Shown here: positions 698 through 10,252 of the stretch, in pieces
Numbering within the stretch: position 1 is the first letter of the stretch
How the letters are laid out: each line of letters begins with the position of its first letter
Source: Clitopilus passeckerianus
Lineage: Eukaryota; Basidiomycota; Agaricomycetes; Agaricales; Entolomataceae
Direction of reading: 5' to 3'
DNA length: 64,000 nucleotides
Assembly (NCBI GenBank): GCA_944990035.1
Contig: CALYLX010000059.1
Span: 372,001 to 436,000, forward strand
Program-made: the position numbers and the translations under genes
Notes under the pieces: generated by a model
Database searches by the model: none
What the model was told of the DNA's origin: nothing
The model's input: only the letters and a program-made list of their open reading frames with translations

Positions 698-1537
698 CGC
701 ATAGAGCTTGTAAGGTTCACAAAAACCATGGGTTGATACTAAATACTAATATTCCGCGCAGAGCCACCTATCATACCCTGCTTTGCTGTTATATTACAAG
801 TGCTTTCTGCCTATTCTATGGACTATTTATTTCAATTCTCGGCAGAAGCTCCTGCAGATTAATCCCCGGTTTGGTAAACAACTAGGTCATTGACCGCATC
901 ACGACGCCCTTATCTCTTTGGCGAAGGTTCCAGGATGGATCTCAAGCGCTGTCATCAGTTGCCAGATACGGCTTGATCATTACGTTTCCATTGCTGCTCA
1001 CAATGCGAACCACTCCGAAGCCAGAATTGGGACATGCGTCCTAATGAGAGCGATGGCCTGTGGCAAGACGTTCAGGATTAGAACTAGCATGGCTGAGGGA
1101 GCTCTCCAGAAAATATCTCGGTCATGGGGTCATGGGTCGTCGGTTTATGGCTGCCCTTATCCGAGTCGAGCTATTCAACTAATTTCCTTGAAAGATTGGC
1201 TTCCTCTGAGATGAGATGACCTCGCCATACAGCAAAATTCATCGTGTCTAACAAGAATACGCTCTGAGTTGCTTCCTCGACGCACAGCTCCACAGTTCTC
1301 GAACGCTCGAGGTCTAAGCTCTACAAGTCCTCACAGGTAAAGAAGAAGGCTTGCACCTTGGGAAGCCGTAACCTTGTGATAGGGAGTAGTTCATGCCCGA
1401 GGGCTTATCGATATATCGTCTTCTCAAGAGCTCTCTGTGAGCAGTTCGAAATCTATAAAATGCCACCATGCTGAAGACATTCGACATCAAGCCACCCTTG
1501 GTACTCCCTCTCCAGCCTCCTTAGACCTTTCGAAGCC
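698..1537. other. Intergenic: 3' flank of transporter and promoter of the peptide precursor
   Basis: No coding signal could be supported. Short open frames at 694-885 and 918-1214 resemble no protein family and lack intron-linked partners. The right end holds a TATA box (1453-1460) and a short upstream open frame (1468-1524). Confidence 0.5.
1453..1460 (+). promoter_or_regulatory. TATA box of the repeat-peptide precursor
   Basis: CTATAAAA lies 78 bases before the start codon at 1538. This fits a strong, regulated core promoter as often seen for fungal secreted-peptide genes. A good-context ATG at 1468 (18 codons, ending TAG at 1524) lies between the TATA box and the gene. It would be a uORF only if transcription starts unusually close to the TATA box. 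Confidence 0.5.
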
Positions 1538-2050
1538 ATGAAGCTCTCCGTCGTCCTGTTGGCTACTTTGACTGCCTACATCGCTCAAGCTGCGCCTTCG
1601 CCTGGAAAGGCTCAGGTATGTCGCATCAAACAGCAGAATATGGTGCACCACTGACAATTTTACCAGGTCAGCCCTGTTGGTACGACCGCCGCCAACGTAG
1701 GTTCCTACGTCTCTGGAGAGAAGAAACGCGAGGAGAATGCCGAGGATATCTTCTTCTACAACTGGGGTAAACAAGTGAACAAGCAGGCACCGGAGGAACA
1801 CGCCGAAGATATATTCTTCTACGATTGGGGCGAGCAAGTAGGGAAGCGGGCACCAAAGGAGCATGCCGAGGACATTTTCTTCTACAACTGGGGCGAGCAG
1901 GTCGGGAAGCGCGCTCCTGAAGAACACTCTGAAGATATCTTCTTCTATAATTGGGGCGAGGAGGCCGCCGCTGAGAAGCGTGCTCCAGCAGAACACGCCG
2001 AGGACATCTTTTTCTACAATTGGGGCGAGCAGGTCGAGCGTTCAAACTAG
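1538..2050 (+). CDS. Secreted repetitive peptide precursor with Kex2-type sites (five EDIFFYNWG repeats)
   Basis: Unrecognised gene; predicted 153-residue secreted precursor. Exon 1 (1538-1615) encodes a signal peptide (MKLSVVLLATLTAYIAQA, cleavage likely at AQA-AP). Intron 1616-1666 ends ttaccag. Exon 2 (1667-2050) encodes a short leader ending KKR, then five 19-23 residue repeats. Each holds the core EDIFFYNWG (repeat 2 has D for N), preceded by an acidic/His stretch such as APEEHA. KR follows repeats 2, 3 and 4; repeat 1 ends NKQ (site lost) and repeat 5 ends the protein. This is the layout of Kex2-processed repetitive proteins: alpha-pheromone precursors, and the precursors of UstYa-modified cyclic peptides (ustiloxin, phomopsin, asperipin, epichloecyclins). 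Aromatic, Tyr-containing cores suit the latter. No UstYa/DUF3328 gene is visible in the window. Basidiomycete mating pheromones are CaaX lipopeptides, so a mating role is unlikely. Function is inference; the architecture is seen directly. Confidence 0.88.
1730..2047 (+). repeat. Five in-frame coding repeats of the peptide precursor
   Basis: Repeat units lie at about 1730-1786, 1787-1849, 1850-1912, 1913-1981 and 1982-2047. Units are 57 to 69 bases long and differ mainly at third codon positions. Unit 4 has a 6-base insertion adding two residues before KR (EEAAAEKR). Confidence 0.9.
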
Positions 2051-4434: not shown

Positions 4435-5085
4435 ATCTGTCGAAATCTATAGCAGTTCGGCCCAGGAGACGTCGTCGTGGGCAACAACCATCGCCAGCTG
4501 GTGGCTTTTAAATCAAGTGGTCCATCCTGCGGTTGGCCTCAGTTGCAAAGAGGCGCCGGGTATTCCGGAATCATAGTAGCCGTAAAGCGATCAAACATCA
4601 AACAAGCGAGAGTGCACCCGTGGTCCCCTTTGCTGGATCCCCCAGCTGACCTCTTTTTCGGTAGAATTAATGGAGGTAAACCCCAGAAAACATGGATATC
4701 TCGCGCCGCAACAACTTTTGACGAGGTTCTCATTGAATCAGCAAAGGGGGAACGGTTTTACCAACCCCACGGGTATTTATAGGTATTTATGTCGACAGAA
4801 AATAGGAACGGCATGGACGCCGGTATACCCGAGCATGAAGTCGTCAATCCAACACAGGAGGCTAACCTTGAAAATACAAGATCGATGATATCCTGGTCCT
4901 CAACAAGGGTTGTGAACGCATCAGATCCTCTCCGAATCGAATTTATGAGAACCCGAAGAGCATTACACAGTACAAACACGAGGTCACACCAGTATAAATC
5001 TACGCCGAGGACCTGCCAACGACTGAATTCTAAGATTCTCTCGGTACACACTCTACCCCCAACACTTCAGACAGCACGTATAAGT
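4435..5085. other. Intergenic between ligase start and first defensin-like gene
   Basis: No supported gene. The left end must contain the ligase promoter. Open frames at 4477-4782, 4758-5051 and 4789-5265 show no domain, splice or composition support. The last 45 bases begin the segment duplicated at about 6135. Confidence 0.5.
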
Positions 5086-5361
5086 CTAAAAGACCAGGTA
5101 GCCATCTGCACAGGTGCAATGCCTGAATTGGAGAGGATTGAGCACTATTCATATATCATGCTTCACCTGATTGGAAACTTACCCATTCGCGTATGTCCCG
5201 CGATTGCCATGTCCTGCGAGTTGGCATTGGCCGCCGCAGAAGACGTTAGGATCGGTTGGCACTAGGGTTCTTTTCTTGACGGTGGCCCGTTCTTCAACCG
5301 CTGGAGCGGCGGAGACCATCGAAATGATGGCTGCGACAAGTGTGATAGTGAGCAACTTCAT
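5086..5361 (-). CDS. Small secreted Cys-rich defensin-like peptide, copy 1
   Basis: Predicted 71-residue prepropeptide. Exon 1 (5361-5183): signal peptide MKLLTITLVAAIISMVSA, then a short acidic pro-region ending KKR at residues 29-31 (Kex2-type site). Intron 5182-5123 (gtaagt ... attcag). Exon 2 (5122-5086) ends in TAG. The mature part would be about 40 residues with only four cysteines, at 42, 46, 62 and 64: C-x3-C, 15 residues, then C-x-C preceded by GH. That is the CS-alpha-beta core (CxxxC plus GxCxC) of fungal and invertebrate defensins. The first and third cysteines of the usual six are absent; the usual GGYC corresponds to GTYA here. The paralogue at 6186-6458 keeps the same spacing and intron. 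A TATA box (5446-5453) lies about 85 bases upstream. Antimicrobial role is inferred from family; a neofunctionalised signal peptide is possible. Confidence 0.8.
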
Positions 5362-5445
5362 GTTTGTCTAGAGACTTGGACTGGAGGGTGCTTAGAGAAT
5401 TGGTAGAGAACGTTGGTTGATGATACTTTGTGTAGTACCTCTCGT

Positions 5446-5960: not shown

Positions 5961-6185
5961 TGTATTTCATCAAATTCCCTAAGGTCGACCAAAGTCATAT
6001 CAAGTTCAAAGTGCCAAGGCTCAGTACTCAGTTGGTCTAATCATTGTCTCACGCAAGTCTTCGCAAAGCCGTAGATCATTACGCCAGGCATTACGCTGTG
6101 ATATGATCCACGCTGATTATTGAGTTCGCTTGGTACACATTCTACTCCTAACCAACTCTCAACAATCTAGACAGCATTCAAAAGA

Positions 6186-6458
6186 CTAAAAAGGCTGATA
6201 GCCGTCCGGACAAGTACAATGCCTATATGGATGACGATTGAGCACCTTGCATGTATTGTACTTCATCTGATTGGAAACTTACGGTGCCACATATGTACCG
6301 TGCTCGCCATGACCCCCGTAGTTGCACCACCAGTCGCAATAAGCGTAGATATCAACTACTACGGTCCTTTTCTCGACAGTGGTCTGTTCTTCAACGGCCG
6401 GAGCGGCAGAGACCATGGAGACGATGGCCGCGACGAGTGTGATAGCGAGCAACTTCAT
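6186..6458 (-). CDS. Small secreted Cys-rich defensin-like peptide, copy 2
   Basis: Predicted 70-residue paralogue of the gene at 5086-5361. Exon 1 is 6458-6283, intron 6282-6223 (gtaagt ... atatag), exon 2 6222-6186. The signal peptide is nearly identical (MKLLAITLVAAIVSMVSA), and the pro-region ends EKR at 29-31. The mature 39 residues carry cysteines at 41, 45, 61 and 63 with spacing identical to copy 1 and the same HCTC-x-DGY tail. The loop differs strongly: CDWWC replaces CGGQC, and the chain between the Cys pairs is changed. Conserved cysteines and variable loops are what is expected of a defence or signalling peptide under diversifying pressure. Function is inference. Confidence 0.8.
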
Positions 6459-6532
6459 GTTTATCGAGAGGTTTGAGAATACGAGGAAGAATGAGAACGC
6501 TGGTTGAAGATCTTTTACATGGTATTTCTCGT

Positions 6533-8511: not shown

Positions 8512-10252
8512 ATGGCGATATCGCCAAGAAGCGCAAATTATGAACGCCTTGAAGGCGGAATGGGTCCAAGCCGCGTGCCAGCTAAGCGCTTCGCGTGGAA
8601 AAAGTTTGCTATAGGCGCAGCAGTCATAATTGGTCTCGTATGGTTCTTTGGACCTAGGGAAACGAGGTCATTTAAATGGCACTCTGGAGAGGGTGAGCAT
8701 GAGTATAGCATGATTCATGCCCTGTAGCTGATCCAATATAGAGTATTCTCCTTCAACAGACGTCGACATTGTGCCTGGTCAAGATTCGCACCAACCAGCA
8801 ACCACCCATAAACCCACTGGTGACACCACTAAGAAACCTCCCCATGACGGTCCCCTCTCGTACGAAACTGACCCTGACCCATCGAAAACCCTCGAATGCA
8901 CGAAACCCCATACCCCTGGCTCACCCCTCGTGCAATACGCACTCATGATCGACGCAGGATCAACTGGTTCTCGCATCCACGTTTACAAATTCAATAACTG
9001 TGGGCCGTCACCTAAATACGAATACGAGGTCTTCGAGATGACCCGGCCTGGCCTATCCGATTACAAGGAGAACTTCATTGATGCAGCTAAGTCGCTCGAT
9101 GTCCTGATGGATAGAGCAGTTAAGACTGTTCCTTCGTCTCTGCAGAGCTGCACCCCAGTTGCCGTTAAAGCTACAGCTGGTCTTCGACTTCTTGATGGCT
9201 CCCAGGCTGAGGATATTCTTCACGCGATTGAAGAGCGTCTGAAGCATAATTACCCCTTCCCCCTTGCCAAGAAGGACCCCGTCGTCATTATGGACGGCAA
9301 AGACGAAGGCATATATGCCTGGATCACCGCCAACTACCTTCTCGATACCATACGCTCAGATAGCAAGTCCACGTTGACATACGCAGTCCTTGACCTTGGA
9401 GGTGCCTCCACTCAAATTGCCTTCGAGCCTACCTTCTCGAAACCGGACTCTGCTCTTGTTGAGGGAGATCACAAATATGATCTCACCTTCGGCTCGAAGA
9501 AGCATGTGCTCTACCAACACTCGTATCTCGGTTACGGCCTAATGCGTGCTAGAAAGCATGTTCACTCTCTTGTCGACTTCATGGCTTCCATCAGGATGCA
9601 GCAGGACCCGAAGAATGGTGATGTCATCGGAAATCCCTGCCTCTCCCGAGGAATGAAGAGACTGGTCACGATCAAGGACGAGCGCAGTGGCCAGGATAGG
9701 AATGTCACTATGGACGGAGAGGAAATCGGTTCCTTCGAAGCCTGTAACAGGATCGTCGAGCTGGTGATGGCTAAGGATGCGTAAGTGCACATCACACTTG
9801 CAGTTTGATGCATTTGCTGATTTTCTCTTCATAGGATCTGCGAGGTTAAACCTTGCTCATTCAATGGCGTCTACCAGCCCTCGCTCCTGGACACCTTCTC
9901 CTCTGGCAAAGTTCTTCTACTCTCGTACTTCTACGACCGCCTATCGCCTCTGCTTGCCCCTGATGCCACCATCACGGTCTCTACCTTCGCCACCCTCGCT
10001 AAAGACGTCTGCCTCGGGCGGGAGCAATGGCTCAAGACATGGGGCACTAACCCGGCAGCGATGGCGGAGCTGGATGACAGACCAGAGTACTGCCTGGATC
10101 TGACGTTCATGTATGGTCTGCTGAGGCTGGGGTATGAGTTTGAGGATAATCGAGATATTAATATCGGGAAACAGATCCAGAACACGGAGCTGGGTTGGTG
10201 TCTCGGTGCGACACTGGCATTGGTTGGAGGAGAGTTGACGTGCAGAGTGTAA
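8512..10252 (+). CDS. GDA1: Golgi guanosine/nucleoside diphosphatase, GDA1/CD39 family
   Basis: Hydrolyses GDP (and UDP) to the monophosphate in the Golgi lumen. This drives nucleotide-sugar antiport and so mannosylation and glycosylation. Type II membrane protein: short cytosolic tail, one membrane helix (KFAIGAAVIIGLVWFFG, about residues 29-45), a Thr/Pro-rich stem, then the lumenal domain. All four apyrase regions are visible: DAGSTGSRIHVYKF, ATAGLRLL, DGKDEGIYAWITANYLLD and LDLGGASTQIAFEP. Exons 8512-8692, 8742-9780 and 9835-10252; both introns (48 and 54 bases) check by phase. The last exon holds VKPCSFNGVYQP and the terminal helices. Length about 545 residues, normal for the fungal family. 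Confidence 0.93.

Follow-up and report, generated by a model that had tools for sequence, protein, structure and literature searches.

KEX2-processed repeat proteins (KEPs) are an already described class of precursors, as the accessible portions of three earlier studies document (PMC7329392, PMC6339444, PMC9769878). In basidiomycetes, DUF3328 (UstYa) genes were counted near 103 of 1680 KEPs by Umemura 2020, and the accessible text of that study leaves undecided whether other cyclisation factors are at work or hardly any cyclisation takes place in these fungi (PMC7329392). There, Tyr was present in 65.6% of DUF3328-linked KEP repeats against a comparison value of 38.2%, and Trp in 20.5% against 24.5%. 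The same text describes a DUF3328-linked type, P-3 (which includes Galerina, Psilocybe and Coprinellus), that has Trp with Pro, expanded KEP types with DUF3328 (8/12) in Sistotremastrum, and ustiloxin and phomopsin clusters with a tyrosinase. For Pleurotus ostreatus, the part of PMC8893723 that was available reports 16 UstYa-like genes, 6 of them developmentally expressed, that are probably involved in dikaritin production. Agaricomycete KEP peptides have been detected by mass spectrometry in linear, minimally modified form, several ending in Trp, in a study whose main text mentions DUF3328 zero times (PMC9769878, in part). Rep1 of Ustilago maydis is also a basidiomycete KEP (PMC6339444, PMC9769878, both in part), and its peptides are 37 aa long (PMC6339444). 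The kind of system considered here is thus already known, since KEPs have been described, DUF3328-linked basidiomycete KEPs counted and UstYa-like genes recorded in Pleurotus, and no characterised basidiomycete KEP/UstYa product was found in the literature searched, which mostly excluded subscription journals and supplementary tables.

The window analysed here is a stretch of 64,000 nt (G000:C59:372001-436000) from a 64.8 Mb assembly of 160 contigs. An initial annotation of this window had placed a gene for repetitive, Kex2-processed peptides at 1538-2050, and its coordinates and layout were borne out when reading frame, splicing and repeats were all checked. The features of the gene, here termed KEP A, are as follows.

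1454..1460, plus strand: TATAAAA box, ~80 nt 5' of the ATG, common to all four A and B promoters (both haplotypes)
1538..2050, plus strand: KEP A, KEX2-processed repeat protein gene, 153 aa, two exons; ATG at 1538, stop codon ending at 2050
1538..1591, plus strand: probable signal peptide, residues 1-18, read by eye; paralogue B starts alike, MKLSLVLL...AAP
1616..1666, plus strand: 51-bp GT-AG intron behind the signal-peptide exon, of the same length in the C139 allele
1721..1729, plus strand: KKR at the leader end, aa 45-47; KIR in the C139 allele
1742..1768, plus strand: core 1, EDIFFYNWG, from aa 52
1781..1786, plus strand: KQ in place of KR after core 1, the site being missing in both alleles
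1805..1831, plus strand: core 2, EDIFFYDWG, from aa 73
1844..1849, plus strand: KR site behind core 2
1868..1894, plus strand: core 3, EDIFFYNWG, from aa 94
1907..1912, plus strand: KR site behind core 3
1931..1957, plus strand: core 4, EDIFFYNWG, from aa 115
1976..1981, plus strand: KR site behind core 4
2000..2026, plus strand: core 5, EDIFFYNWG, from aa 138, followed by the C-terminus EQVERSN

The protein begins MKLSVVLLATLTAYIAQAAP, and its first ~18 residues, as read by eye, are hydrophobic and end AQA-AP; a leader then runs to KKR and is followed by five units of 19-23 aa. Exon 1 is 78 nt long and exon 2 carries the leader and all repeats, and the intron must be removed because the unspliced frame contains a stop. 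At the DNA level the repeats form five 62-nt copies, four of which are 71-84% identical to the reference copy, at a spacing of 63/63/63/69. Repeated similar peptides with dibasic sites, by which KEPs are recognised, are present in KEP A (KKR before the first unit, KR after three of five), so the proposed KEX2-processed repeat architecture holds and the protein is a KEP. Because KQ follows core 1 and core 5 ends the protein, strict KEX2 cutting would yield three single-core peptides and one double-core peptide; the expectation of four to five copies per precursor is therefore right as to the five cores present, whereas release as single units applies to three only. The calculated monoisotopic masses are 2236.02 for the KEP A fragment APKEHAEDIFFYNWGEQVG (2067.93 without Ala-Pro), 2440.01 for the KEP A fragment APEEHSEDIFFYNWGEEAAAE (2271.92) and 2366.01 for the paralogue B fragment APEEHAEDIFFYNWGEEVNA (2197.92), each falling by 2.016 per cross-link. 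Upstream of A and B the DNA aligns poorly apart from the TATAAAA box, which is probably a promoter element. A Pfam search of the KEP A protein gave four matches up to E 10, every one of them under its cut-off, and these phage and bacterial models were taken as chance.

Contig pairs of the assembly are ~89-92% identical along their longest alignments, which suggests that they represent two haplotypes, i.e. a dikaryon. On the other haplotype (C139) lies an intact 154-aa allele of KEP A in which the five-unit layout is kept, and over the whole protein the two alleles differ with a dN of 0.054 and a dS of 0.19 (ratio 0.29). Allele against allele, amino-acid changes in the cores occur solely at the residue before Trp (in three of five units; N to S, D or Q), the eight other positions being identical. 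All pairwise comparisons of the five 9-codon cores of KEP A give 37 synonymous versus 4 non-synonymous differences, and this excess, together with five copies in register, argues against chance repeats. Over the 19 cores of EDIFFY type counted for A and B on both haplotypes, 496 synonymous codon differences were counted over all pairs, and the non-synonymous ones fall on the residue before Trp (95) and on one Trp (18, from a single unit with W to R); the counts, being taken over pairs, are interdependent, and they exclude ADIFFYSWG, the opening unit of B. The EDIFFYxWG core of KEP A is conserved at the protein level.

When the repeats of gene A were searched against their own genome, five pairs of loci were found, and further queries extended these to ten groups with 20 loci, a lower bound in that only the best candidates were scored. 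The groups, with their contigs and cores, are listed below.

Group A, window (C59) and C139: EDIFFYxWG
Group B, C93/C142: EDIFFYNWG core as in A
Group C, C82/C83: EDIVFTYWG, ending in W
Group D, C82/C83: DIVFSGW
Group E, C93/C142: DATFLYNWG and variants
Group F, C93/C142: DDDIVFLPQSVGGWAPG
Group G, C93/C142/C141: DSDATFHRSSNGGWYYG
Group H, C123/C26: ADTFLQRGIYWPT
Group I, C74: DTDLGFRLGSPAGW
Group J, C141/C79: H-like, known from search matches alone

Gene models of A and B consist of an exon for the signal peptide, a short intron and an exon for the repeats, as do candidate models of C, D, G and H, each the best among several candidates; the similar start MKLSVTLL... precedes E and I, and no start was found for group F. 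The first intron of paralogue B reads as GC-AG (ACG|GCAAGT...ACAG), with 56 and 55 nt on the two copies, and the C83 copies of C and D have stops within the repeat frame. Homologues had been expected to keep their KR sites and to have repeats conserved at the protein level: the core is indeed conserved and dibasic sites are kept, with some sites lacking in group D and gene A. Outside the 20 loci, weak matches containing stops were seen on C156, and a one-unit KEP-like frame, KREEAAEADSNIAFRSWIG, lies on the minus strand at C93:99527-99658, ~2.8 kb from a UstYa profile (PF11807) match, perhaps as a remnant.

Trp is present in 36 of 36 tabulated units (eleven precursor sequences from nine groups, with one unit each for F to I) and is the only aromatic residue common to all of them; the C142 allele of B, whose last unit has R for W, stands outside this table. 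Tyr is missing from units 1 and 5 of C, from D, F and I, and from two of the three E units on C142. In the alignment of A to D the pattern D-I-x-F-x-x-W stands out, and groups E, F, G and I, compared by eye, widen this frame to D-x-x-F, then 3 or 7 residues, then W; the exceptions are one E unit without Phe at that position and group H (D-T-F), which misfits the spacing. In shuffle tests, no shuffle of 5000 reached the score of the A unit against B, C, D or E, and the A unit was not above chance against F, G, H and I (1516, 5000, 3264 and 3384 of 5000, respectively). A group E unit gave 0/5000 against each of A, F, G and I, 34/5000 against C, 41/5000 against H and 5000/5000 against D, and a second E unit 1/5000 against A. 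It is thus group E that connects the wider family, since E matches A, F, G, I, C and H above shuffles and A does not match F to I.

A search of the genome with the PF11807 profile gave 92 match segments at E <= 1. Twelve of the 20 KEP loci, in six of the ten groups (B, E, F, G, H and I), lie 0.7-2.0 kb from such a match, while the 5-kb surroundings of all matches fall into 28 clusters and make up 0.52% of the genome. With this proportion, the binomial probability is 4e-12 for six of ten groups and 3e-4 for the two of five groups found from gene A alone, both figures assuming independent random positions, an assumption that clustered loci violate. None of 14 control genomes had a PF11807 match, which says little because the controls, where named, are prokaryotes. 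On each haplotype, groups G, F, E and B share a stretch of about 140 kb on a single contig with several UstYa genes (C93, ~37-177 kb; C142, ~46-189 kb), and paralogue B, with the same core as A, has PF11807 matches at 0.94 and 0.74 kb on the two haplotypes, where two UstYa genes per haplotype adjoin it, each with both HxxHC motifs. In the genome-wide search, no PF11807 match was located within 100 kb of gene A, the nearest being at 131 kb on C59 and at 107 kb on C139; for C and D none was found on their contigs, and for J the nearest lie at 267 and 304 kb. The UstYa/DUF3328 link considered in the initial annotation is therefore supported for the family, including B on both haplotypes, and does not extend to gene A, for which UstYa action is unproven. 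The look for modifying enzymes on the same contig beyond the window, proposed in the initial annotation, gave a nearest PF11807 match 131 kb from gene A and no tyrosinase match on its contigs (PF00264; 12 match segments genome-wide at E <= 0.001, zero on KEP-carrying contigs).

All 12 KEP-linked UstYa gene copies examined contain two HxxHC motifs (a set without the copies next to G on C142 and C141), the first mostly in the context GYYIAQLDVFHQLHC and the second in HxxHCxDSxRQ. UstYa genes on C66, C67, C139 and at 505 kb of C59 have another first context, S-x-[YF]HQ[LM]HC, and the pattern of the second motif gave no match in them. No KEP was recognised around genes of this other type at the loci examined; one low-scoring ORF near one of them (L035) was rejected as a KEP and taken as chance. 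About five UstYa matches within 6 kb, with the other HxxHC context and no KEP seen at the loci examined, occur at each of C66:1228670-1234328, C67:370339-375977 and C69:10761-16398. Three 3.5-kb stretches with UstYa genes of the KEP-linked type (L040-L042) held no KEP recognisable by pattern, and no PDB relatives of one UstYa exon were found.

The remaining surroundings of the KEP genes are mixed. Pfam searches of 13 of the 40 window ORFs of >=150 aa, one 60-aa window ORF, 3/3 ORFs of locus L011 and 3/8 of locus L012 identified AMP-binding domains (two ORFs), F-box types and GDA1/CD39 (E <= 0.01). Among named proteins, those of Hypsizygus marmoreus (73%) and Collybia nuda (72%), both Agaricales, match the GDA1/CD39 gene (8732-9781) best, and this one gene supports the basidiomycete host assumed in the initial annotation, probably a member of the Agaricales that has no close relative in the database used. 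Around KEP B, ten ORFs include UstYa, IF4E and UbiA, the last ~8 kb distant from the KEP, besides a TerB match below threshold; ten ORFs around F/E, C and D include an ammonium transporter, PNPOx types and a kinase match that is also below threshold. Also in the window, on the minus strand at 5055-5378 and 6155-6475, is a tandem pair of secreted, Cys-containing proteins of very small size, whose copies lie ~1.1 kb apart and have pieces with 71-84% identity. They read MKLL(T/A)ITLVAAI..SAAPAVEE..KR, with two Cys close together behind it and a C-x-C in a later frame, and are possibly another KEX2-processed peptide, defensin-like at most.

Relatives beyond this genome were scarce. The KEP A protein alone, compared with a protein database, gave 562 candidates, none at E <= 1, and of 7994 candidates scored with a profile of the A to D alignment one protein reached E <= 1; as only candidates sharing most words were scored, such absence is weak evidence. 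The one match (P0121, E 6.5e-4) is a hypothetical protein of 89 aa from the ascomycete Biscogniauxia mediterranea, with the cores PDIFFYNW and DAVFVNW and KR downstream of each; profile comparison gave a probability of 97%, and in shuffles against the KEP A unit its first core gave 0/5000 and its second 1/5000. Viral contigs contained 54 matches to the pattern, none of them a relative. In the initial annotation the core had not been recognised from any described family, and in agreement with this its strings were not found as peptides in the literature searched, where the single match to a core string came from an unrelated paper and was rejected. As far as that search extends, the EDIFFYxWG core, the occurrence of linked and unlinked paralogues with the same core, and the D-x-x-F...W frame are new.

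We consider it fairly probable that KEP A is a KEX2-processed repeat protein of a UstYa-paired family that makes cross-linked peptides, its own peptide being either cross-linked in trans or linear. To judge from its architecture, the signal peptide would take the precursor into the ER and the secretory pathway, along the route set out in the accessible part of PMC9769878. The KEX2 protease would then cut behind KKR and KR, a carboxypeptidase (KEX1) would trim the basic residues, and a STE13-like dipeptidyl aminopeptidase may remove Ala-Pro from the three units directly behind KR, so that acidic peptides around EDIFFYxWG would be released, three with a single core and one with two. At the domain level, the genome contains two matches to the KEX2-type P_proprotein (PF01483), both on C125, and encodes DPPIV_N (DPPIV/STE13-like) domains. 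Since most KEP groups are paired with UstYa, its products are most likely dikaritin-like peptides with oxidative cross-links, the bonds presumably being formed by UstYa/DUF3328 oxidases, and the near-invariant Trp would be a candidate anchor because it is the one aromatic residue that all tabulated units have in common and Tyr is missing from several. Gene A would be a dispersed paralogue without a UstYa gene of its own, whose peptide could be cross-linked in trans by the enzymes of cluster B or stay linear, and the product might serve as a secreted defence or signalling peptide. Against cross-linking stand the lack of UstYa near A, C, D and J, the lack of tyrosinase on KEP contigs, the linear, minimally modified state of the agaricomycete KEP peptides in PMC9769878 (in part) and the KEP-type UstYa genes without a recognisable KEP, while against Trp as the usual anchor, Tyr and not Trp is enriched in the DUF3328-linked KEPs of PMC7329392, in the part available, although the type P-3 there does have Trp. 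A more specific version, speculative and rather improbable, is that a D-[I/A/L]-x-F...W frame, with an acidic spacer and KR, brackets 2-7 variable residues, that a distinct UstYa type forms bonds to Trp and that gene A is served in trans. If true, this would describe a Trp-anchored macrocyclic RiPP class in mushrooms that is diversifying, with the core DIFFYNW also in an ascomycete.

The product of KEP A could instead be an unmodified linear secreted peptide, hormone- or pheromone-like, trimmed by KEX2, KEX1 and STE13 without any UstYa, a reading we regard as possible though unlikely. It is favoured by the missing PF11807 matches near gene A and groups C, D and J, by the linear agaricomycete peptides seen by mass spectrometry, several ending in Trp (PMC9769878, in part), and by Ala-Pro, which opens four of the five units (three straight after KR, one after KQ) and belongs to the XP dipeptides that PMC6339444 and PMC9769878, as far as these were available, describe for STE13. 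However, the STE13 signature is weak because Ala-Pro stands singly in each unit, a run of XA/XP dipeptides of the ascomycete alpha-pheromone type not being found in KEP A, and the same-core paralogue B adjoins two UstYa genes on both haplotypes.

That pairing also counts against a surface-active or amyloid-forming wall peptide like Rep1, acting via IFFYxW, which would leave the UstYa genes of the paralogues unaccounted for; a repeated core rich in aromatic residues, within a secreted precursor that is cut at KR, and the precedent of Rep1 as a basidiomycete KEP (PMC6339444, PMC9769878, in part) speak for such a role, but KEP A units are acidic and of 19-23 aa, versus the 37 aa given for Rep1 peptides in the accessible part of PMC6339444, and we hold it to be highly improbable. 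Gene A might also be a decaying duplicate of cluster B, functionless now that KR sites and enzyme are lost. The KQ for KR in both alleles and the KKR lost to KIR in the C139 allele could indicate drift toward decay, and the missing UstYa partner points the same way, yet both alleles are intact with a dN/dS of 0.29, the TATA box is retained and the core residues are identical between alleles save for one variable site; this conservation speaks against decay, which we consider very unlikely. Same-core paralogues with and without a nearby enzyme offer a natural comparison for deciding if mushroom peptides are substrates of UstYa, if the enzyme targets Trp instead of Tyr and if it can work in trans, and the KEP/UstYa pairing in six of ten groups makes peptide cyclisation in mushrooms testable.

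Compared with known systems, KEP A resembles in architecture the KEPs of Coprinopsis, Pleurotus and Lentinula, as described in the accessible part of PMC9769878, with which it shares a probable signal peptide, dibasic-separated repeats, Trp cores and XP/XA after some KR sites; the cores given there (QYKAPSW, SGVAADW and others) differ from EDIFFYxWG, and UstYa pairing is frequent in the present family. Pleurotus ostreatus, to judge from what was available of PMC8893723, is like this genome in its expanded UstYa family and belongs to the Agaricales, as this host probably does, but precursors are not described there. The Biscogniauxia protein is similar to KEP A in its signal-peptide-like start, its DIFFYNW core and KR downstream of the cores, but is from an ascomycete and has two cores and other spacers; this likeness may reflect shared descent, transfer or convergence. 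Unlike the dikaritins (ustiloxin, phomopsin and asperipin-2a, which are ascomycete RiPPs), the present family is from a basidiomycete and known from genes alone, has Trp as the one aromatic residue common to every tabulated unit, with Tyr missing from several cores, is without a tyrosinase match on its contigs and includes in gene A a member without linked UstYa. With the dikaritins it nevertheless shares a KEP precursor, an adjacent UstYa gene in six of ten groups and, in the KEP-linked UstYa examined here, the two HxxHC motifs.
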